NCBI GenBank assembly: GCA_013151415.1
Contig: JAADII010000170.1
Span: 1-33,832, forward strand
DNA from: Chloroflexota bacterium
GTDB taxonomy: Bacteria; Chloroflexota; Anaerolineae; J102
Reading direction: 5' to 3'
DNA length: 33,832 nt
Of the stretch, positions 4,704 through 15,171 are shown one piece after another. Position 1 is the stretch's first letter. Each line of letters opens with the position of its first letter. The position numbers were made by a program, and so were the translations under genes. The notes below the pieces were generated by a model that made no database searches, had not been told where the DNA came from, and saw only the letters and a list, made by a program, of their open reading frames with translations.

Positions 4704-4774
4704 GGGAGTTAGAGATGTGATGAATGCAGCCGCTTCATCCCCGTTTGGTGATGCACAATGTGATTTACGAAAGC

Positions 4775-7700
4775 TCACTTCCATATTTGCGGCATGAAGA
4801 GTTTCGCGTCCGCGGTCTCGTAGTCGCCGAACATAAGAGGAAGCTCGCCGCCCACGGAAATGGCCGCAAACAATTCGTTGGGCGTGCTCGAGGCCATGCC
4901 GGGCGGATCCAACTCCTCCACCCGATAGGTCGCGGGAGCGGGCAGGGGATCGAACAGCACATAACCATCGCCCCCGGTTTGCGAGCGACCCCATTCCTGA
5001 TTGCCGGGCCAGGAGCGCACGATCACCGTCACGCCGGCCAGGGGCGGCTCGCCCGGCTGGAATGCCTGATCCTTATTGAGGTCGTTCCACACGAAGACGC
5101 GGATCCCGCCCGAGGGGAAGGAGGTGGGCGTCGGCGTGGGCGTGGCCACGGGAACGATGCCGAAATGGCTCTCCAGTTGGCCGGTTCCGGGCGCAAGCCA
5201 CACGCTGGTGGGCGTGGTGGCCTCCCAGTTCGCGGGCGTAATCAGCAACAATTGGTAGGTCTCGGCTGCAAGCCCAATGAAACGATATTCACCGTCCGCG
5301 TTGGTCGTGGTTTCGGCCACCAACGAGCCGTTCACTCGCTTCAATTGCAGGGTTACGTCCGCGACGGGGGCCTCGCCGTCATCGCGCACCTGATTTCTGT
5401 TTGCATCATGCCAGACCACGCCGATGATGCGACCGCCAGTAGGGGTTGGCGTGGGGATGATGGTGGGGGTGTTGGTCGGGGTGGGGGTGATGGTGGGAGT
5501 GGGCGTAAGCGTAGGGGTGGGGGTGTCCACCGGCTGGGCCAGGAAATCGATGTCGGTGGTCTCTTGCCCCGCGCTCACCGTAACCCATCGTTCGATGGTG
5601 AGCATTTGCCAGCCCGAGGGCGGGGTGGGACGCACGCGGTAGAGTCCCGCGGCCAGGCCGGTCATGCGATAGAAGCCGTTGTTGTCGGTGACCACATTGA
5701 GGATGGGCGACCCGCTTTGGCTGTAAAGGGTGACAAGCACGCCGGGGATGCCGTCGCCGGTGGTGTTGGAGCGCACATGGCCGGAGATGGCGCCGCCGGA
5801 CGTGGCGGGCGTGGCCGTGGGCGTGGGGGTGGGCGTGAAAGTTGGGGCGCCCGTGGGCGTGGGGGTTTGCGAAGTGGGGGTGGAGGTCGGCGTGATCTGG
5901 GGAACGTCGCTCAGCTTCTGCACATCAACATGGTGAATGTATTCGTCGCCGTCGTTGATATTGGCGTCGCTGCGGCTATCGATGTAGAAATCCGCGCCGC
6001 CGGGCAAGCGATTGCCAAAATAGCCGTCTTCGATAAGGAAAGTGACCACTTTCCAGCGCTTGCTGTTGGTCTTTTGCACATAATAGAGCGGCGGATCGAT
6101 AATTCCGTCGCCAGGCAGGCCGCCGCTCACGGCCAGGCCTCGCGACACGGTCCAATCGTTGACCGCGTAGGCGCGCGCGGCCTTTGGCCCCCCGGTCGAA
6201 TCGTACATGAGCTTGAAGCGGTCGTTCCCCACATCCAGATAGGTCACGGTGATGGCCACCTCGTGGGGCTGAGCGGGGTTGGCGGGCGGCGAGAGATAGC
6301 GGTCGTCGGCATCGAAGAAGAATCCGTAATTGCCCCCGGCCTGGTCGCTGCGCCGCGCCACCCAACCGGGATCGACCTCGATCTGCACAGGATTGATCGC
6401 GCCTGGATCGATGTTATAGAGTCCGGCGTCGTTGAGGATCTGCGAATAAGGATTGGGGTTGTAATGATAGGGTTTATCCAGCACGTTGGATTCGGGCGCG
6501 TCCCAGCCGGTGATGCCGCCGTTGCTCAAGAAGCGTTCATCGTCGGTGATGGGGATGGTCACGCCGTTGGGCGCGGTGTGAAGCTGATAGAGATAGAATT
6601 CATAATTGCCGTTGGTGGGCCAATCGTGCCACTGGTTTTTGGCCAGAAATGCGTAGCTGAGATAAGTGGGGTTTTTGTGCTCGCGCATCCGCGACCAGAT
6701 GCTGGGCGGCGTGGGTTGGGCCGGCTGAAAACCCTTGCCCAGATATTTGGCGGCCCATTGCGCGGTGACGCGATTGTCGGGCGCGTCTTGCGTGTTCCAG
6801 AAATGGGAAAGGCGAATGAAATCCGCGTGCACGTCCAGGGCGCGAGCCATGGACCAATAGAACTCATTGGGCGTTCCCATCATATAATCGTAGCTTTCCA
6901 GGCCAATGGGAATCTGTTCGCCATGCAAACGGGCCTGGTCGTAGAGACCGGCGCAATTGCGCGAGGAGTTGCTGCTCCCACAGGCCTCGATGAAGATGAA
7001 GTCGGAGGCGATGCCGTTGATGGAGACGCCAATGCCCAACGACGCGGCCCAATCGGCCAAGTCGCGCCGCTCCCACGGGTATTTATGGAAAGGCGCGTTT
7101 TGCATGAGCACCTGCACCTGGGGCCGGCCATCGTTGCTGAGAAACGCGTTTTTGTAGGCCGTGAGAATGCGCTGCACCACCTGAATCCATTTGGCCGAGT
7201 CCATGCCCGCGTCGATGAGATCGTTGCGGTCGTAATAATTTACGCCCCCGCGCGAGAAGTAGTCCGCGGGCTTGTTTTCGCCATCTTTGCCCGTGCCCGC
7301 GGCCACCCAGGCGATGTGCTGGGCGTATGGCCCGGAGCGCAGATGATCGCCCAGCGCGGCGATGAAGGTCTCGTATTGGCTGAGATAGTAATCGTCCTGG
7401 TAATCGATAAGGGGCCAGGGGCGATTGTCGGGATCGCCGTCGCCGTCGCAGTCGCGGGTGTCGGGCGTGCTCGCGTAGACAATGGGATCGTCGGCATTGC
7501 CGGGGATGCCGTCCGGGCCATTGCGCACCCATTGGGGCGTGAGCTCAGCGCCCTGGATGGGGCAGGCCACGAAACGGCCGGTGTATGTCATGACCGCGAC
7601 GCCGATTTTGCTATAGCCCGCGTCCAACTGAGCCTGGATCCAGCCATCCAATCTGCCAAAGTCATAAACCCCGGGCGAGGGGTTGAGGCTCTTCCAATCC

Positions 7701-7918
7701 CAAAAACGAAACGATCCGGTGGCCGAAATGGGGTCGGGATCGATGGGCGTTTGGTTATATCCATTTTCGATATAGAAACCCGCGCCGGGGCCGGCCACAT
7801 ATTGGGGCGCGGCCAACGCGGCCGAGACCGGCTGCATTTGCGCCAAAACATAGGGACTGACAACGGGCAGGAAGAATAGGGTCGCGGCCAGTGCAAGCCA
7901 GGTGATCCGTTTATGCAT
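4775..7918 (-). CDS. Exported glycosidase-like TIM-barrel protein with three PT-linked beta-sandwich modules
   Basis: A 1047-residue exported protein. A Sec signal peptide (about 1-26) is followed by a region to about 480 that reads like a glycoside-hydrolase TIM barrel: RFWDWKSLNPSPGVYDFGRL and later segments with aromatic and acidic residues. Candidate catalytic acids are Glu214 (KDGENKP) and Glu341 (GLESYDY), but I cannot name a GH family. A DxDGDGDxD calcium-type loop lies at about 156-165. A beta-rich domain follows at about 510-670, then three Cna-B/SdrD-like modules (about 708-795, 828-922, 938-1033), each preceded by a Thr/Pro linker. The last ends in LFMPQIWK. The start is supported by GGAG six bases upstream. 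The promoter lies far upstream, with a structured leader between. It is probably an extracellular enzyme acting on polysaccharide; the adjacent esterase shares its architecture, suggesting joint function or a shared surface location. Confidence 0.8.
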   Translation of the reverse strand: MHKRITWLALAATLFFLPVVSPYVLAQMQPVSAALAAPQYVAGPGAGFYIENGYNQTPIDPDPISATGSFRFWDWKSLNPSPGVYDFGRLDGWIQAQLDAGYSKIGVAVMTYTGRFVACPIQGAELTPQWVRNGPDGIPGNADDPIVYASTPDTRDCDGDGDPDNRPWPLIDYQDDYYLSQYETFIAALGDHLRSGPYAQHIAWVAAGTGKDGENKPADYFSRGGVNYYDRNDLIDAGMDSAKWIQVVQRILTAYKNAFLSNDGRPQVQVLMQNAPFHKYPWERRDLADWAASLGIGVSINGIASDFIFIEACGSSNSSRNCAGLYDQARLHGEQIPIGLESYDYMMGTPNEFYWSMARALDVHADFIRLSHFWNTQDAPDNRVTAQWAAKYLGKGFQPAQPTPPSIWSRMREHKNPTYLSYAFLAKNQWHDWPTNGNYEFYLYQLHTAPNGVTIPITDDERFLSNGGITGWDAPESNVLDKPYHYNPNPYSQILNDAGLYNIDPGAINPVQIEVDPGWVARRSDQAGGNYGFFFDADDRYLSPPANPAQPHEVAITVTYLDVGNDRFKLMYDSTGGPKAARAYAVNDWTVSRGLAVSGGLPGDGIIDPPLYYVQKTNSKRWKVVTFLIEDGYFGNRLPGGADFYIDSRSDANINDGDEYIHHVDVQKLSDVPQITPTSTPTSQTPTPTGAPTFTPTPTPTATPATSGGAISGHVRSNTTGDGIPGVLVTLYSQSGSPILNVVTDNNGFYRMTGLAAGLYRVRPTPPSGWQMLTIERWVTVSAGQETTDIDFLAQPVDTPTPTLTPTPTITPTPTNTPTIIPTPTPTGGRIIGVVWHDANRNQVRDDGEAPVADVTLQLKRVNGSLVAETTTNADGEYRFIGLAAETYQLLLITPANWEATTPTSVWLAPGTGQLESHFGIVPVATPTPTPTSFPSGGIRVFVWNDLNKDQAFQPGEPPLAGVTVIVRSWPGNQEWGRSQTGGDGYVLFDPLPAPATYRVEELDPPGMASSTPNELFAAISVGGELPLMFGDYETADAKLFMPQIWK
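5437..5526. repeat. GT-rich minisatellite encoding the second PT linker
   Basis: Imperfect tandem repeats of GTGGGGGT/GTCGGGGT units on the plus strand encode the Thr-Pro linker between the first and second modules of the glycosidase-like protein. Shorter arrays of the same type occur at about 5125-5155 (third linker) and 5805-5890 (first linker). G-runs of three to five with short loops make this a potential G-quadruplex in the template strand. Confidence 0.8.
5805..5892. repeat. GT-rich minisatellite encoding the first PT linker
   Basis: The same GTGGGCGTGGGG-type repetition as in the other linkers is found here, translating on the minus strand to Thr-Pro-rich sequence between the catalytic half and the first beta-sandwich module. 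The linkers vary in length between modules, as expected for slippage-prone DNA. Confidence 0.75.
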
Positions 7919-9051: not shown

Positions 9052-12000
9052 CTACCCATCGCCAGCTGGCGAGCATGCAGGATCATAGGATTCTGCACCC
9101 ACATACTTTCGCCATTCCTTCTCGTTCAGCGCGCGATTGGCTATGGCGCAGGCCACCTGCTCCCATGATTTGGGCTGCACGCGCCATATCAGCGCTTTAT
9201 TATCAAAGCTGCCCAAATAAAGCCGCTTTCCGTCTGGGCTAACGGCCATGGATTCGGTTTCTCGTCCTGTGTGCAACGCCGGACCAATGGGCGAGCGGGC
9301 GCTCATATCCCACCATATCACGCCGCCATCGCTCCCCAATGTAACCAGTGTGCGCGCGCCATCTGGGGGCCAGAAAAGCGCCTGCCACACTTGCGCATCA
9401 TGTCCGAGCAGAGGCTCGCCCACCTCACGCCCCGATCCGACATCCCAAAAGCGCACTGTGCGATCACTGCTGGTCGAGATCAACGTGCGACCGTCCGGGC
9501 TAAACAACAACGAAGTGACCCAATTCTCGTGTCCAACCAGCGGCTCCCGGATGGGCGTCAACGTGTCGGCGTCCCAAAAACGAATGAGATTGTCTGTGCC
9601 GCCCGAAGCCAAAATGCGACCGTCGGGACTAAAAGCCAGACTGAGCGCCCAGCCATCATGCCCATCGACCGGCGACGCGAGCAGTTCGCCGCTGACCACA
9701 TCTCGCACAGCAATGACGCCATCGAAATCTCCGGAAGCCAAGCGTCTTCCATCCGGGCTATAAGCCAGGCTGATGAGCACATTGCCGTGGGTGGAGAATC
9801 GAGGATGCAGCGGACGTCTCTCATTCGCATCCCACAGGATCACGCCTCCGCTCACATCGCCGCTGGCGAATGTATCGCCGGCTGGGCTATAAGCGGCCTG
9901 CAAGATGGCGTCGCCGTGCTCCAGGACGCCGCCGTCCAGAAGCTCCCCGGTAACCGCATCGCGCAACATGATCTTGCCATCAAAACTGCTCGTCAGCAAA
10001 ACGCCGCCATCCGGGCTGAGCGCCACACTGCGCACGCGCCCTTCATGCCCCTTGAGAAAAACGCGATCCGTCAAGTTCCAACGCAAGATGCGCCCATCCG
10101 CATCGCCGCTAAACAACAGCTCGCCATTGGCCGAAAATCGTACGGCGCGCACCCAATTGGAATGACCCATAAGCGGCGGCGCGATCATTTCACCCGATTC
10201 CAAATCCCATAGGATCAGACGATTATCGGTGCCGCCCGTGGCCAGCAAACGGCCATCCGGACTGAAAGCCGCGCTCAACACGCGCCCTTCGTGTCCCTGC
10301 AAGGGCGAAAAAACCGGCTCGCCCGTACGCGTATCCCACACCCAAGCCGTTTCATCAAAACTGGCCGCGGCCACATAGCGTCCATCCGCGCTAAAGACCA
10401 GATCATGCACAGTGGCCGTGGGGCCAAGAAGCCGCGAGGTGATCTCGACCCCCCGTCGCCAATCAAAGAGACGGATCGCCATACCCTCGGCCGTGTTGGA
10501 GGCCACCGCCAAGATCGCGCCGTCGGGCGAGAGGGCCAGATTAATATCCGAGCCAAGCGCATCGGCCGCGATGGTCGCGGCTTGCAGTTCATCGGCGTCC
10601 ACATCCCAAGAATAGACATGACCCGCCGTGTCCACCAATATCAACATGCGTTCGTCGAGAAACGCGGCCGTGTCGATGCGCATGGCGTCGGGCAAACGCA
10701 ACAAACGCGCGGCTCCGGGCTGCTCCACATCATAGACGCTAAGCTGGTCCACGCGAATCACGCCATATCGGCCGCCTTTTGGGCTAAGAAGATATTCATC
10801 GCCCGGTTCGGTGAGCAAATCCGCTCCCAGAGGACGATTTTCGCTCAAGCGCCAACGCTTTACGGTTCCTTGTAAGCTGAGCGCGGTCAACACATCGTTA
10901 TCACCGTCGATGACCAAGGAGACGACGCCCTCCAGCTTGCCCGGCGTCGCACCCAAATAGAGAAAGTTCGAGAGCAAAGGCGGCAGCTCCAACCGAGTCA
11001 GCAGCTCTCGGCGAGAGGCGGCCTCGTCGGAAAAACGCAACGATTCCAGGCTGAGCAAAATCGCCAGATCAAGGCGTTCATCGGCCAACTCGACGGCCTG
11101 GGCGCTGAGTTGGCGGGCTTTGGCCTGCCGCGCGGCCTCTTCGGCCTGAAGTCGGGCGGCCTGGGCGGTCGAGCGAGCTTTCTGCGCTTCATTGGCCTTC
11201 AACTCGGCCTCGCTGCGCGCGTTTCGCGCATCCAAGGCCGCCAAAATGGCCAGGAAGGCCAAAACAGCCAAACCAAACGCCAGCCAGCGCAAGCGCCGCC
11301 GCGCGCGCGCGGCGATCTCGGCCCGACGCCGCTCGGCCTCGGCCAGGGCCTTGGCCTGCGCCACCTCGCGTTCACGCCTCGCCTCAGCCTCACTCTGCTC
11401 CTTTTCGTGCAAAGCGATGCTCGCCTGAATGAACCGCTGTTCCTGCGCACTAAGGTCTTGAGAGCGGCGCTGAAGCCAGGCGCTGGCCTCTTCGAGTGGA
11501 GCGCCGCGTAACAACGCGCCGGAATCGCGGTTGCTAATCTCCCATTGTTCAAGCGCCGCATGCAATCGCGCATGCCATAGGCGAAATCGTCGGTCTGCTT
11601 CCAACCATTCGCGCAGGCGCTTCCAGTTTCGTATCAATGCTTCATGCGCGACCTCGGCCGTTTCTTCACCGGTAGGCGTGCGATCGGTGACCACCAATCG
11701 GGCGTCGGCCAGCTTCTCCACCACCAGCCAGTCCTCATCGCCCAGTTCGGCTCGAGTCACCACGCGTCGCGCGTCGGGGGCGTTTTCGCCAGGATGAATC
11801 ATGCGCAGCAACACGCGCTGAGCGCGCGTTTGTTCATGCGGCGCAAGCCGGAAAAATATCCGGTCTGCATAACTGGCCAGGGCGCCGGCCACGCCGCCGA
11901 TTTCGTCATAAGCCGCATGAGTCAACAACCCGTCGCGGCGTTGCTCCCATAACAACGTAAGTGCAAATTCGAGAAGCGGCAAATGGCCCGGTTGATCGCC

Positions 12001-13560
12001 AACGTCATCGAGCAATCTTTCCACCAATCCCGGTTCGAAACGAGCGCCCCGCGCTCGCGCAGGCTCCTCAATGACTTGACGCAACTCCTCGCGATTCATG
12101 GGGCCAAGCACCAACGCGCCCTGCTGAATGGCGTCGGCCAACGGACGGTAGGAAAGCGCCTCGCCCATAAAAGCCGCGCGCAACGAAAAGAGCGTGACGC
12201 ACTTGCCCATGAAAGGGGACGATTCATCGGCCAGGGTGAGAAGCGCGTCCAGAAAGCGACGACGCAGCGCCATATCCTGGCAAAGCGTGTATAGTTCTTC
12301 AAATTGATCGACAATGACCAACAAATTCAGCGTCGAACCTTCAACATCCATCATGCGTTGAGCGTTCAAGGCAGCAAACACTCGACATAGCGACCCCTCT
12401 CCGGCGCGCCAGCTCTCGGCCGCGAGCTCGCTCGCCTCGACCGGAAAACCGAGATCGTTTAGGGCCTCGATCAGAGAACGAATCGGATTGGCCCCGGGCC
12501 GAAACTGAACGATCAACCACTCTTTATCCATCGCAGACGCGTATGACGTCCGGGAGCGCGCGAGATCTTCAAACCGAATCGAACGTAAACGGGGGAGAAG
12601 CCCCGCCTGTATGAGCGACGTCTTGCCACTGCCCGAGGCGCCGATGAGCCCGATCACGCGTTCGCGCTCCACAAGCTGGAGCAGTTGCTGGATAAAACGT
12701 TCGCGACCATAAAAGTCGGCGACGTCTTGGGCCGCGAACGCGTGCAACCCTTTATAGGGCGCGCCGGCGTCAGGGGCTTGCAAGGCCAATTCGCCCCGCC
12801 GGATGCGCCGGAGCAAAGAGCGGGCCGCGGCCGAGGGTTCGGCCGCCATCTCTTCTCTCAACGTTTCTCGCAACACCTCGAACTGACGCAGCGCGGCCGC
12901 GTGCTGGCCGTCCAGGGCGAGCACGCGCATCAGACCAATGTGAGCCGGCTCATGCCAGGCCGCGATCTCGATCTGGCGTCGCCGATAATCGGCCGCTTGC
13001 TTGTATTCGCGACGCCGCTCATGATGCAATGCAAGCGCATCCAAGACGCGCAACGCCTGTGAGCCGAGTTCAATGCGCTGGAATTGAACCCACTCTTCGA
13101 AACTTTCGGCATCGGGCAATGAAAACCCCGCCAGAAACTCGCCCTGATACAGTTCGATGGCCTCTCGCAAACGTTGGATGCATGGAGCGCAGGTTTCCAC
13201 CTGCCGATGCGGATGCACTTCACTGGCGTGAAGCAACATTCGAAATGACCACACATCCAACCAGTAAGGCGATGTGGGATTGAACTGGACTGTCTGGCGG
13301 GTGGTGAGAAAATAGGAGGCGTTCTGGCCAGGATCCAACGCCTGTCGGAGATTGTACAATGCCTGCCGTAGATTCTGACGCCCCTTTGCCGGGAGCTCGT
13401 CGGGCCAAAACATGGTGGCCAACGCCTCGCGCGTGTGCGTCTTACCGGCTTCCACTGCGAGAAAAGCCAATAGCGCGCGCCCCTTATTCGACTCGATGCC
13501 GGTGATGGGCGCGGCGTCGCGCATCACCTGGAAAGTTCCCAAGAGGAAGATGCGAAGCAT
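9052..13560 (-). CDS. Giant regulator: SARP wHTH-BTAD + nSTAND NTPase + membrane helix + WD40 propellers
   Basis: A 1502-residue signalling regulator. Residues 1-95 form an OmpR-like winged helix typical of SARP proteins (MLRIFLLGTFQV, then FWPDELPAKGRQNLRQALYNLR); 98-255 are the BTAD helical repeats. The STAND-type NTPase starts at about 268 (YKGLHAFAAQDVADFYGRE), with Walker A GASGSGKTS at 307-315 and Walker B LLVIVDQFEE at 413-422. A charged coiled coil (about 715-757) leads into a single membrane helix (about 758-776), then a second Ala/Glu/Gln-rich coil. From about 870 to 1460 I count about 14 WD40 blades, 11 clear and three degenerate, which would make two seven-bladed propellers. STAND proteins act as switches that oligomerise on sensing a ligand; the helix would put the propellers outside and the DNA-binding part inside. 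No Shine-Dalgarno site is visible. The target genes are unknown. Confidence 0.9.
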   Translation of the reverse strand: MLRIFLLGTFQVMRDAAPITGIESNKGRALLAFLAVEAGKTHTREALATMFWPDELPAKGRQNLRQALYNLRQALDPGQNASYFLTTRQTVQFNPTSPYWLDVWSFRMLLHASEVHPHRQVETCAPCIQRLREAIELYQGEFLAGFSLPDAESFEEWVQFQRIELGSQALRVLDALALHHERRREYKQAADYRRRQIEIAAWHEPAHIGLMRVLALDGQHAAALRQFEVLRETLREEMAAEPSAAARSLLRRIRRGELALQAPDAGAPYKGLHAFAAQDVADFYGRERFIQQLLQLVERERVIGLIGASGSGKTSLIQAGLLPRLRSIRFEDLARSRTSYASAMDKEWLIVQFRPGANPIRSLIEALNDLGFPVEASELAAESWRAGEGSLCRVFAALNAQRMMDVEGSTLNLLVIVDQFEELYTLCQDMALRRRFLDALLTLADESSPFMGKCVTLFSLRAAFMGEALSYRPLADAIQQGALVLGPMNREELRQVIEEPARARGARFEPGLVERLLDDVGDQPGHLPLLEFALTLLWEQRRDGLLTHAAYDEIGGVAGALASYADRIFFRLAPHEQTRAQRVLLRMIHPGENAPDARRVVTRAELGDEDWLVVEKLADARLVVTDRTPTGEETAEVAHEALIRNWKRLREWLEADRRFRLWHARLHAALEQWEISNRDSGALLRGAPLEEASAWLQRRSQDLSAQEQRFIQASIALHEKEQSEAEARREREVAQAKALAEAERRRAEIAARARRRLRWLAFGLAVLAFLAILAALDARNARSEAELKANEAQKARSTAQAARLQAEEAARQAKARQLSAQAVELADERLDLAILLSLESLRFSDEAASRRELLTRLELPPLLSNFLYLGATPGKLEGVVSLVIDGDNDVLTALSLQGTVKRWRLSENRPLGADLLTEPGDEYLLSPKGGRYGVIRVDQLSVYDVEQPGAARLLRLPDAMRIDTAAFLDERMLILVDTAGHVYSWDVDADELQAATIAADALGSDINLALSPDGAILAVASNTAEGMAIRLFDWRRGVEITSRLLGPTATVHDLVFSADGRYVAAASFDETAWVWDTRTGEPVFSPLQGHEGRVLSAAFSPDGRLLATGGTDNRLILWDLESGEMIAPPLMGHSNWVRAVRFSANGELLFSGDADGRILRWNLTDRVFLKGHEGRVRSVALSPDGGVLLTSSFDGKIMLRDAVTGELLDGGVLEHGDAILQAAYSPAGDTFASGDVSGGVILWDANERRPLHPRFSTHGNVLISLAYSPDGRRLASGDFDGVIAVRDVVSGELLASPVDGHDGWALSLAFSPDGRILASGGTDNLIRFWDADTLTPIREPLVGHENWVTSLLFSPDGRTLISTSSDRTVRFWDVGSGREVGEPLLGHDAQVWQALFWPPDGARTLVTLGSDGGVIWWDMSARSPIGPALHTGRETESMAVSPDGKRLYLGSFDNKALIWRVQPKSWEQVACAIANRALNEKEWRKYVGAESYDPACSPAGDG

Positions 13561-13597
13561 AAAAAGGAAGACGAGAAGCGAGACGAGAGATGAGAAA

Positions 13598-13633: not shown

Positions 13634-13662
13634 AGTGTACTCTATCGTCCCCATTTCTCCAA
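13634..13662 (-). promoter_or_regulatory. Candidate promoter of the SARP-STAND gene
   Basis: On the minus strand: TTGGAG (13657-13662), exactly 17 bp, TACACT (13634-13639). Transcription would start near 13627, leaving a leader of about 65 nt. The -10 sequence is identical to that of the proposed aroC promoter on the other side of the region. Confidence 0.55.
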
Positions 13663-13682
13663 CATCCATCCACACATGCATG

Positions 13683-13704
13683 TTTCCTGACGATTTCCTG
13701 ACGA
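13683..13704 (+). promoter_or_regulatory. Two perfect 11-bp direct repeats, SARP-operator-like
   Basis: TTTCCTGACGA occurs twice in immediate succession, giving an exact 11-bp period. SARP regulators are known to bind direct repeats with 11-bp (one helical turn) spacing, with the last repeat about 8 bp before a -10 box. Here TATCAT (13713-13718) begins 8 bp after the second repeat. The site lies 20 bp upstream of the SARP gene's own -35 box on the other strand. A perfect 10-bp palindrome ACATGCATGT (13674-13683) touches its left edge. It is a candidate autoregulatory and sRNA-activating operator; only two copies are visible. Confidence 0.5.
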
Positions 13705-13724
13705 TCCGTGGCTATCATCTAAAA

Positions 13725-13862
13725 TGAGAATTTGTGAGGCTGATTGTGTGAATTGGCCACACCTCAGCCGCCGTGACGGGTTTTGTCGGCTTTCGGGAGC
13801 GAGAGGGCGGAAGCCGACAATAGGCGTCGGTCCCCTGGCGAGAGACCGACGCCTATTTTTAT
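13725..13862 (+). ncRNA. Candidate structured small RNA (or long leader of aroC) with terminal terminator
   Basis: Three consecutive strong stem-loops lie on the plus strand with no credible protein gene. SL1 is 13738-13769 (GGCTGA/TCAGCC, then GTGTG/CACAC above an internal loop). SL2 is 13783-13820 (perfect 10-bp arms TTGTCGGCTT/AAGCCGACAA). SL3 is 13821-13855 (perfect 12-bp arms TAGGCGTCGGTC/GACCGACGCCTA), followed by TTTTTATT, the form of an intrinsic terminator. A possible -10 (TATCAT 13713-13718) and the 11-bp direct repeats lie just upstream, so the RNA would be about 135 nt. Because aroC starts 134 bp further on with its own good promoter, a free-standing RNA is a little more likely than an attenuator. 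The 5' end is an estimate. Confidence 0.45.
13821..13862 (+). terminator. Intrinsic terminator between the SARP regulator region and aroC
   Basis: Perfect 12-bp stem (13821-13832 with 13844-13855), 11-base loop, then five T and ATT. It is preceded without a gap by another perfect 10-bp stem-loop (13783-13820). It faces plus-strand transcription; no protein gene lies upstream on that strand, which is why an RNA gene is proposed. Confidence 0.75.
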
Positions 13863-13915
13863 TGCCTTACGTTGGCCGATGCCGAGGGGATAACGCATCG
13901 AAGGATGGCCGGCTT

Positions 13916-13944
13916 TTGCAACAGCATCCCGAACAAGGTACACT
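13916..13944 (+). promoter_or_regulatory. Candidate aroC promoter
   Basis: TTGCAA (13916-13921), exactly 17 bp, TACACT (13939-13944). The start of transcription would be near 13951, 45 bp before the aroC ATG and clear of the upstream terminator. Confidence 0.6.
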
Positions 13945-13995: not shown

Positions 13996-15171
13996 ATGCT
14001 TCGTTTTCTCACTGCGGGCGAATCGCACGGCCCGCAACTCACAGCCATACTCGAAGGCATGCCGGCCGGCTTGCGCCTCGATATGAACGCCATTGGCCAA
14101 GAGATGGCCCGTCGCCAGAAAGCCTACGGCGCGGGCGGTCGCATGAAGATCGAGCAAGACGTCGCTCGCATCACCGCGGGCGTGATGAATGGTCGCACCA
14201 CCGGCGCACCCATCGCCCTCACCATTATCAATAAGGATTGGAAGCATTGGGCCGAACGCGATATTCCGCCCATGACCACGCCCCGTCCCGGCCATGCGGA
14301 CCTGACCGCGGCCGTGAAATACGGCTATCGCGAGTTGCGGCTGGCCTTGGAGCGGGCCAGTGCGCGCGAAACCGCGGCGCGGGTCGCTGTGGGTGCGATT
14401 TGCAAGCAATATCTGGCCGAGTTCGGCATTCGCGTGCAGGGTTATGTGCTCAGCATTGGCCCGGTGCGGGCCAGCATCCCCGAAGATATGCCCTACGAGC
14501 AGCGTTTCGAGTTGGCCGAGAACAATGATTTGCGCTGCCCCGATCTCGAAGCGGTCGAGCGGATGCGCGAGCATGTATGGGCCTGTATGCAGGCCAAAGA
14601 TACGGTGGGCGGCGTGTTCGAGGTGGTGGGGTTGGGTTTGCCGGTGGGGTTGGGCAGCCATGTGCATTGGGATCGACGGCTGACCGCTCGTCTGATGGCC
14701 GCGGTGGGGTCGATTCACGCCATCAAGGGGGTGGAGATCGGCCCGGCCTTCGAAAACGCGGCCAAATTCGGCTCGGAAGTGCACGACGAGATTTTCCGCG
14801 ACGAGGCCGGCAATCTGGTGCGAAAGACGAATCGCGCCGGCGGATTGGAGGGCGGCGTCACCACCGGGCAACCGCTGATCATTCGCGCGGCCATGAAACC
14901 CATCAGCACAGTGCTCAACCCAAGACGCTCGGTGAATCTGGCCACGGGCGAGCCGGCCCCGACCACATACGAACGCTCCGATTTCAACGCGGTTCCGCGC
15001 GCGGTGGTGGTGGGCGAGGCCATGGTCGCGTTTGTGCTGGCCGACGCGCTCATGGAGAAGCTGGGCGGCGATTCATTGGCCGAGCAGCAGCCCCGCTTTC
15101 GAGCTCTGCGCCGCGCACATCTCGATGACCTGCCCATGGACAACGAGCCGTGGCGATTCGGATATGAATGA
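13996..15171 (+). CDS. aroC: Chorismate synthase
   Basis: Chorismate synthase (391 aa) catalyses the last step of the shikimate pathway, converting 5-enolpyruvylshikimate-3-phosphate to chorismate with reduced FMN. Signature stretches are clear: FLTAGESHGPQL at the N-terminus, RPGHADL at 97-103, the ERASARETAARV helix at about 119-130, the GLGSHVHWDRRL segment, and the family's GGLEGGVTTGQPL...MKPI block in the C-terminal half. Length is normal for the family and the first Met fits the conserved N-terminus exactly. No Shine-Dalgarno site is visible before the ATG; the promoter lies at 13916-13944. Downstream, after 143 bp, is the aroK-aroB fusion, so three shikimate-pathway activities are grouped here. 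Confidence 0.97.
   Translation: MLRFLTAGESHGPQLTAILEGMPAGLRLDMNAIGQEMARRQKAYGAGGRMKIEQDVARITAGVMNGRTTGAPIALTIINKDWKHWAERDIPPMTTPRPGHADLTAAVKYGYRELRLALERASARETAARVAVGAICKQYLAEFGIRVQGYVLSIGPVRASIPEDMPYEQRFELAENNDLRCPDLEAVERMREHVWACMQAKDTVGGVFEVVGLGLPVGLGSHVHWDRRLTARLMAAVGSIHAIKGVEIGPAFENAAKFGSEVHDEIFRDEAGNLVRKTNRAGGLEGGVTTGQPLIIRAAMKPISTVLNPRRSVNLATGEPAPTTYERSDFNAVPRAVVVGEAMVAFVLADALMEKLGGDSLAEQQPRFRALRRAHLDDLPMDNEPWRFGYE

Follow-up and report, generated by a model that had tools for sequence, protein, structure and literature searches.

The stretch of DNA analysed here (hereafter the window; 33,832 nt from a Chloroflexota bacterium) carries a large regulator gene separated from aroC by a gap of 435 bp, which holds the segment described below. 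The regulator (9052-13560, minus strand; 1502 aa) combines a SARP-type N-terminus containing a BTAD domain with an nSTAND1 NTPase and a WD40 propeller, as identified by Pfam (BTAD, 3.7e-16; nSTAND1, 3.4e-118; WD40, 3.3e-71), and the Trans_reg_C winged helix was detected in its orthologues. None of the regulators tested had a match at 1e-5 among the PADLOC models of known anti-phage defence systems. A candidate -10 element of the regulator gene, TACACT, was identified at 13634-13639 on the minus strand, with TTGGAG 17 nt upstream, and the pyrimidine-rich leader of the regulator mRNA (13570-13594, minus strand) includes CUCUCGUC. On the other side of the gap, aroC (chorismate synthase; 13996-15171, plus strand; PF01264, 7e-114) is followed on the same strand by an aroK-aroB fusion encoding shikimate kinase-dehydroquinate synthase. 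aroC has a candidate promoter of its own (TTGCAA-17-TACACT, 13916-13944, plus strand) and was considered a downstream neighbour outside the module. Elsewhere in the window, opposite strands of 4724-7918 each carry an ORF exceeding 1040 aa (4724-7879, plus; 4775-7918, minus); the two overlap, and only one of them can be a real gene.

Within the gap, a small RNA of ~140 nt is predicted on the plus strand at 13725-13863 from promoter geometry and the position of a terminator. Folding revealed hairpin 1 (HP1) at 13738-13769, hairpin 2 (HP2; 11 bp) at 13785-13818 with GCGAGAG in its loop at 13799-13805, and hairpin 3 (HP3; 14 perfect bp) at 13819-13857 with GGCGAGAG in its loop at 13837-13844, followed by UUUUUAUU, the U-run of an intrinsic terminator (13856-13863). 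The first-pass annotation had proposed three adjacent stem-loops ending in an intrinsic terminator, with no protein gene upstream on that strand; all of these are present (13738-13863), and the stems are indeed strong, with lengths of 11 and 14 bp instead of the 10 and 12 bp originally counted. The HP1-HP3 segment has a minimum free energy of -64.6 kcal/mol and a fold z-score of -4.4, with none of 200 dinucleotide shuffles as stable, while a repeat of this test gave a z-score of -4.8 and one shuffle in 200 as stable. At the gathering score of Rfam 15, the window and its relatives yielded no match except a neighbouring tRNA, and near-hits to MIR1319 and weev_FSE obtained at a relaxed threshold were rejected as palindrome artefacts. 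No other nucleotide copy of the segment was found in its own genome, on which ground a dispersed repeat or MITE was rejected. In the openly accessible papers searched, neither an RNA of this type nor a STAND gene paired with an sRNA was described.

The predicted transcript start near 13725, and hence the length of ~140 nt, follows from a -10 element, TATCAT, located at 13713-13718. This element lies 8 bp past the second copy of a tandem 11-bp direct repeat (TTTCCTGACGA twice; 13683-13704, plus strand; core CTGACGATTTCCTGACG at 13687-13703), the two copies of which (13683-13693 and 13694-13704) are identical and spaced by 11 bp. SARP activators bind direct repeats spaced by 11 or 22 bp, the 3' copy of which is 8 bp away from the -10 element, and the large SARP AfsR uses such repeats to activate the small gene afsS (PMC10936776). 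The repeat at which a possible promoter had been suggested is exact and, with its 8-bp distance to TATCAT, matches the SARP-box geometry. Together with the adjacent SARP-domain gene (winged helix and BTAD), the tandem repeats and their ~8-bp distance to the -10 element constitute a SARP-type promoter, and 13683-13704 is, as judged from its sequence, a textbook SARP box and the predicted operator. The pattern CTGACGATNYCCTGACG, allowing up to one mismatch, has a single site in the 4.5-Mb genome, namely this box. Across 396 genomes of the class the same search found the pattern to be far commoner than its reversed control; in distant genomes, many of the sites lay away from any SARP gene, and inspection of these genomes yielded no GGCGAGAG hairpin.

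A box of the same kind was found at the orthologous regulator loci, and in relatives the distance from the core CTGACG to the -10 element is a constant 9-10 bp. Regulator homologues mostly carry repeats with an 11-bp period that point away from the regulator, with the -10 element at a constant distance, and in many cases the repeats are followed by a gene for a small or a secreted protein; large SARPs of the class thus appear to share this arrangement in general. Outward 11-bp direct repeats ~9 bp before a -10 element were seen class-wide at large SARP-STAND genes (upstream of the BTAD-STAND genes at L099, L101, L108-L110, L112, L172, L174-L176, L179, and L181). A small protein of ~70 aa (YRSFLLRLWR...LLEDPLTGERVGF), which has no Pfam or NCBIfam match, often stands behind SARP-STAND repeats, and at another locus (L168) tandem repeats of ~120 bp (GGGGAACTGGCGTTCCCCTCGGAGCAAGCATGATAAG...) follow a CTGACGATTTCCTGACG site.

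A nucleotide search of 40 relatives, whose genomes are mostly fragmented, returned no homologue of the whole RNA; the conserved parts of the locus are HP3, the loop motif, and the promoter only. Orthologous loci were located by searching with the regulator protein, independently of the RNA. In four such genomes (G007, G003, G001, and G010), divergent direct repeats and a -10 element are followed 90-200 nt downstream by a strong hairpin with a GGCGAGAG loop, so that all five loci with an orthologous regulator, the window included, share the repeats, the -10 element, and the hairpin with its invariant loop. In 603 kb of DNA, GGCGAGAG occurred as a loop sequence closed by a stem of at least 9 bp only at the four orthologous loci, in the window, and at L074; the last was at one point considered a chance occurrence, given congeners without the RNA, a view rejected in favour of a family member at a syntenic locus. 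In a phylogenetic tree, the five RNA-paired regulators form one clade (100/100) together with that of G038, where a box of 11-bp repeats is likewise present but the segment, though it ends in a terminator, lacks the loop motif.

The stem sequence of HP3 differs at every orthologous locus. Across six HP3 sequences, 94.7% of the cells pair, compensatory changes occur at 10 of the 13 pairs, and GGCGAGAG is invariant; none of 500 shuffles matched this pairing and compensation. Restricting the alignment to the five protein-retrieved loci left 60 of 64 cells paired and the same 10 of 13 HP3 pairs compensatory, and HP3 therefore passes the covariation test that the first-pass annotation had called for, while HP1 and HP2 are not alignable across species. 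A predicted promoter of its own, a terminator, the absence of a conserved ORF, and a compensatory HP3 structure together mark the segment as a probable small RNA. The compensatory changes, the invariant loop, and the lack of an Rfam family support the original proposal, which was that of a so far undescribed small RNA with the regulator gene divergent from it; the SARP box, the conserved loop, the sibling RNAs, and the pairing with STAND regulators go beyond that proposal. In G001, a hairpin unit of 37 nt (GTTCCATGAAGCGATTGGCGAATTTTTCTCATGGAAC) occurs two times in the RNA (L103:960-1180), again with GGCGA in the loop.

Covariance searches extended this set. Class-wide matches to a single-sequence model (R1) proved to be unrelated terminators and were rejected; in genus g19 they included T-box-like leaders carrying GGGTGGCACCACGGG. 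Four leaders of that type from one genus (L084, L086, L087, and L094), in which GGGTGGCACCACGGG precedes a strong terminator, score below the Rfam gathering score. A model built from the six HP3 sequences (R2) and searched in the 396 genomes recovered its own seed sequences with scores of 50-58 bits. Below them came a second tier that consisted for the most part of ordinary terminators, but those of its matches that were from the same bacterial family again displayed (G)GCGAGAG loops. A model of 15 sequences (R3) run on the 40 relatives revealed two further RNAs in the window's own genome (G000). The first (at C121, 24.9-25.1 kb) has 11-bp TGAGAC repeats, TATAAT, an HP2 loop ATGGCGAGAG, an HP3 loop TTGGCGAGAG, and a T-run (z -4.7), and the second (at C68, 27.7-27.9 kb) has TAGAAT, several hairpins, and a T-run, again with TTGGCGAGAG as the HP3 loop (z -6.8); the architecture of both is that of the window RNA. 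In total, the covariance searches identified 21 such RNAs in the bacterial family, three of them in the window's genome, counts that lean towards the structure model because it served to retrieve the members after the first five. A further CGAGAG within 90 nt upstream of HP3, counted independently of the region covered by the model, was present in 12 of the 21 members and in 2 of 31 control terminators (p 8e-5); at the orthologous loci of G007, G003, and G001 there is none. These RNAs most likely represent a previously undescribed family sharing the same hairpin loop within one group of Chloroflexota.

Family members usually lie back-to-back with regulator genes. In 11 of the 21, the divergent neighbour is a STAND NTPase gene (of the SARP-nSTAND or HTH-NB-ARC type) and in three a response regulator gene, whereas none of 36 look-alike control terminators has either kind of gene in this position; this contrast, rather than the E-values, is the evidence, because member loci had supplied some of the query proteins. 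HTH-NB-ARC proteins are encoded divergently from the RNAs at C121, C68, G007:C29, G002, G006:C362, and G006:C494, all of which were detected by the model alone. At a separate syntenic locus adjoining a convergent PA14/NHL protein, the RNA was found in seven genomes (G001, G004, G008, G010, G011, G016, and G017), in three of which a response regulator is divergent from it. Six loci on this PA14/NHL side (L239, L242, L249, L250, L230, and L283) carry a conserved palindrome-like ATAGGGGAAATTCCCCTA before the promoter.

These findings suggest that 13725-13863 is probably a small non-coding RNA activated by the STAND regulator, whose conserved loops would contact a common partner. In such a mechanism, the WD40/nSTAND part of the divergent regulator would sense a signal, upon which, as the SARP-box geometry implies, the SARP domain would bind the 11-bp repeats by the -10 element and recruit RNA polymerase. 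Transcription would then stop ~140 nt on, at HP3, which has the form of a canonical terminator. The resulting RNA would display GGCGAGAG in the HP3 loop and GCGAGAG in the HP2 loop, both of which may contact the same trans-acting partner, either an RNA-binding protein or mRNAs. A common partner is the most likely explanation, because the loops are conserved across RNAs with unrelated stems and differing regulators.

A more specific version of this mechanism, which we consider doubtful, is a STAND-sRNA feedback module in which CUCUCGYC in the regulators' own mRNA leaders would base-pair with the GGCGAGAG loops common to the RNAs. STAND regulators of several architectures would each drive a divergent sRNA, and the sRNA siblings would limit and cross-connect the STAND sensors. 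The CUCUCGUC element in the window's regulator leader is complementary to the GGCGAGAG loop and is thus a possible feedback site. Of 11 paired regulators, four (those of the window, G000:C68, G002, and G006:C362, the last read from the sequence) have an exact CUCUCGYC shortly before the start codon, against a background of one per 13 kb. Compared with dinucleotide-shuffled pyrimidine-rich leaders, the match was not significant, except weakly in two (p 0.52, 0.21, 0.03, and 0.04), and full-length duplex energies between sRNAs and regulator leaders were uninformative.

Alternatively, HP1-HP3 might purely terminate, with transcription from the SARP promoter being aborted at an insulating terminator. 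HP3 and its U-run are canonical, and the class-wide covariance matches proved to be ordinary terminators. Yet termination does not require an invariant 8-nt loop, and this loop is retained in G001 and G010, where no U-run follows HP3. The second CGAGAG upstream, and the fact that loop-bearing siblings adjoin regulators while control terminators do not, likewise argue against this explanation, which we regard as improbable.

The position of the segment before aroC and the aroK-aroB fusion on the same strand also raised the option of an attenuator or riboswitch leader, with HP3 as a regulated terminator and either HP2 or an extended CCGUGACG/CGUCGGU pairing as the antiterminator; in prefix folding, the 5' arm of HP3 was indeed transiently sequestered by another pairing. 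A similar structure is, however, absent upstream of aroC in all 15 relatives inspected, on which basis this very improbable option was rejected. At the orthologous regulators, the RNA is instead followed by an alpha-L-rhamnosidase gene (G003) or by a convergent gene read, from its C-terminus, as valS (G007, G001, and G010). Since the downstream neighbour varies between aroC, valS, and rhamnosidase, the RNA goes with the regulator and does not represent an aroC leader. Neither an aromatic leader peptide nor an Rfam or T-box match was found, and the promoter-like site of aroC lies beyond the terminator. Least probable of all is a coding role, with the short transcript specifying a small peptide. 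Precedents are the small gene afsS, which is under the control of the large SARP AfsR (PMC10936776), and other SARP-STAND loci of the class, which carry a divergent ~70-aa protein behind the same type of SARP box; the six compared segments, however, share no ORF, those present being short and unrelated, with no conserved ribosome site seen.

If the reading of a STAND-activated small RNA holds, a non-coding RNA becomes a candidate output or brake of STAND sensors. STAND NTPases (NB-ARC, nSTAND) are bacterial relatives of NOD-like immune sensors, and to our knowledge many of them have no known output. The grounds for such a role are the back-to-back placement of the RNA with STAND genes, its dedicated operator, and the occurrence of the same loop under different STAND architectures. 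The locus offers a regulator-operator-RNA triple, and the RNAs would form an sRNA family in Chloroflexota, a group in which our searches found no described sRNA of such kind.

Several known systems share parts of this arrangement. As in T-box and aro/trp leader attenuators, hairpins precede a terminator and an amino-acid gene lies downstream; unlike in those systems, there is no T-box sequence, the downstream gene is not conserved, and the aroC genes of relatives lack the RNA. The segment resembles Rho-independent sRNAs in being intergenic and structured, with its own (here predicted) promoter and a 3' terminator, but differs from them in general by its linkage to STAND NTPase regulators and by having no Rfam family. 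CsrB/RsmZ-type sRNAs occur as several unlinked copies per genome, with unrelated stems, the same loop motif, and a regulator for each. The unlinked siblings described here likewise repeat one loop motif on unrelated stems, each putatively under its own regulator, whereas the motif is GGCGAGAG and not ANGGA and is present in one or two copies per RNA only; repeated ANGGA loop motifs, as expected of a Csr/Rsm decoy, were not found, and the conserved HP3 loop contains no GGA. The closest parallel in regulator and promoter is AfsR-afsS of Streptomyces, in which a large SARP with a STAND/NOD domain acts on a small adjacent target unit through two 11-bp direct repeats, the 3' repeat lying 8 bp from the -10 element (PMC10936776). 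In the present system, the sensor is a WD40 propeller and not TPR, the host belongs to Chloroflexota and not to Actinomycetota, and the target is divergent and apparently non-coding.
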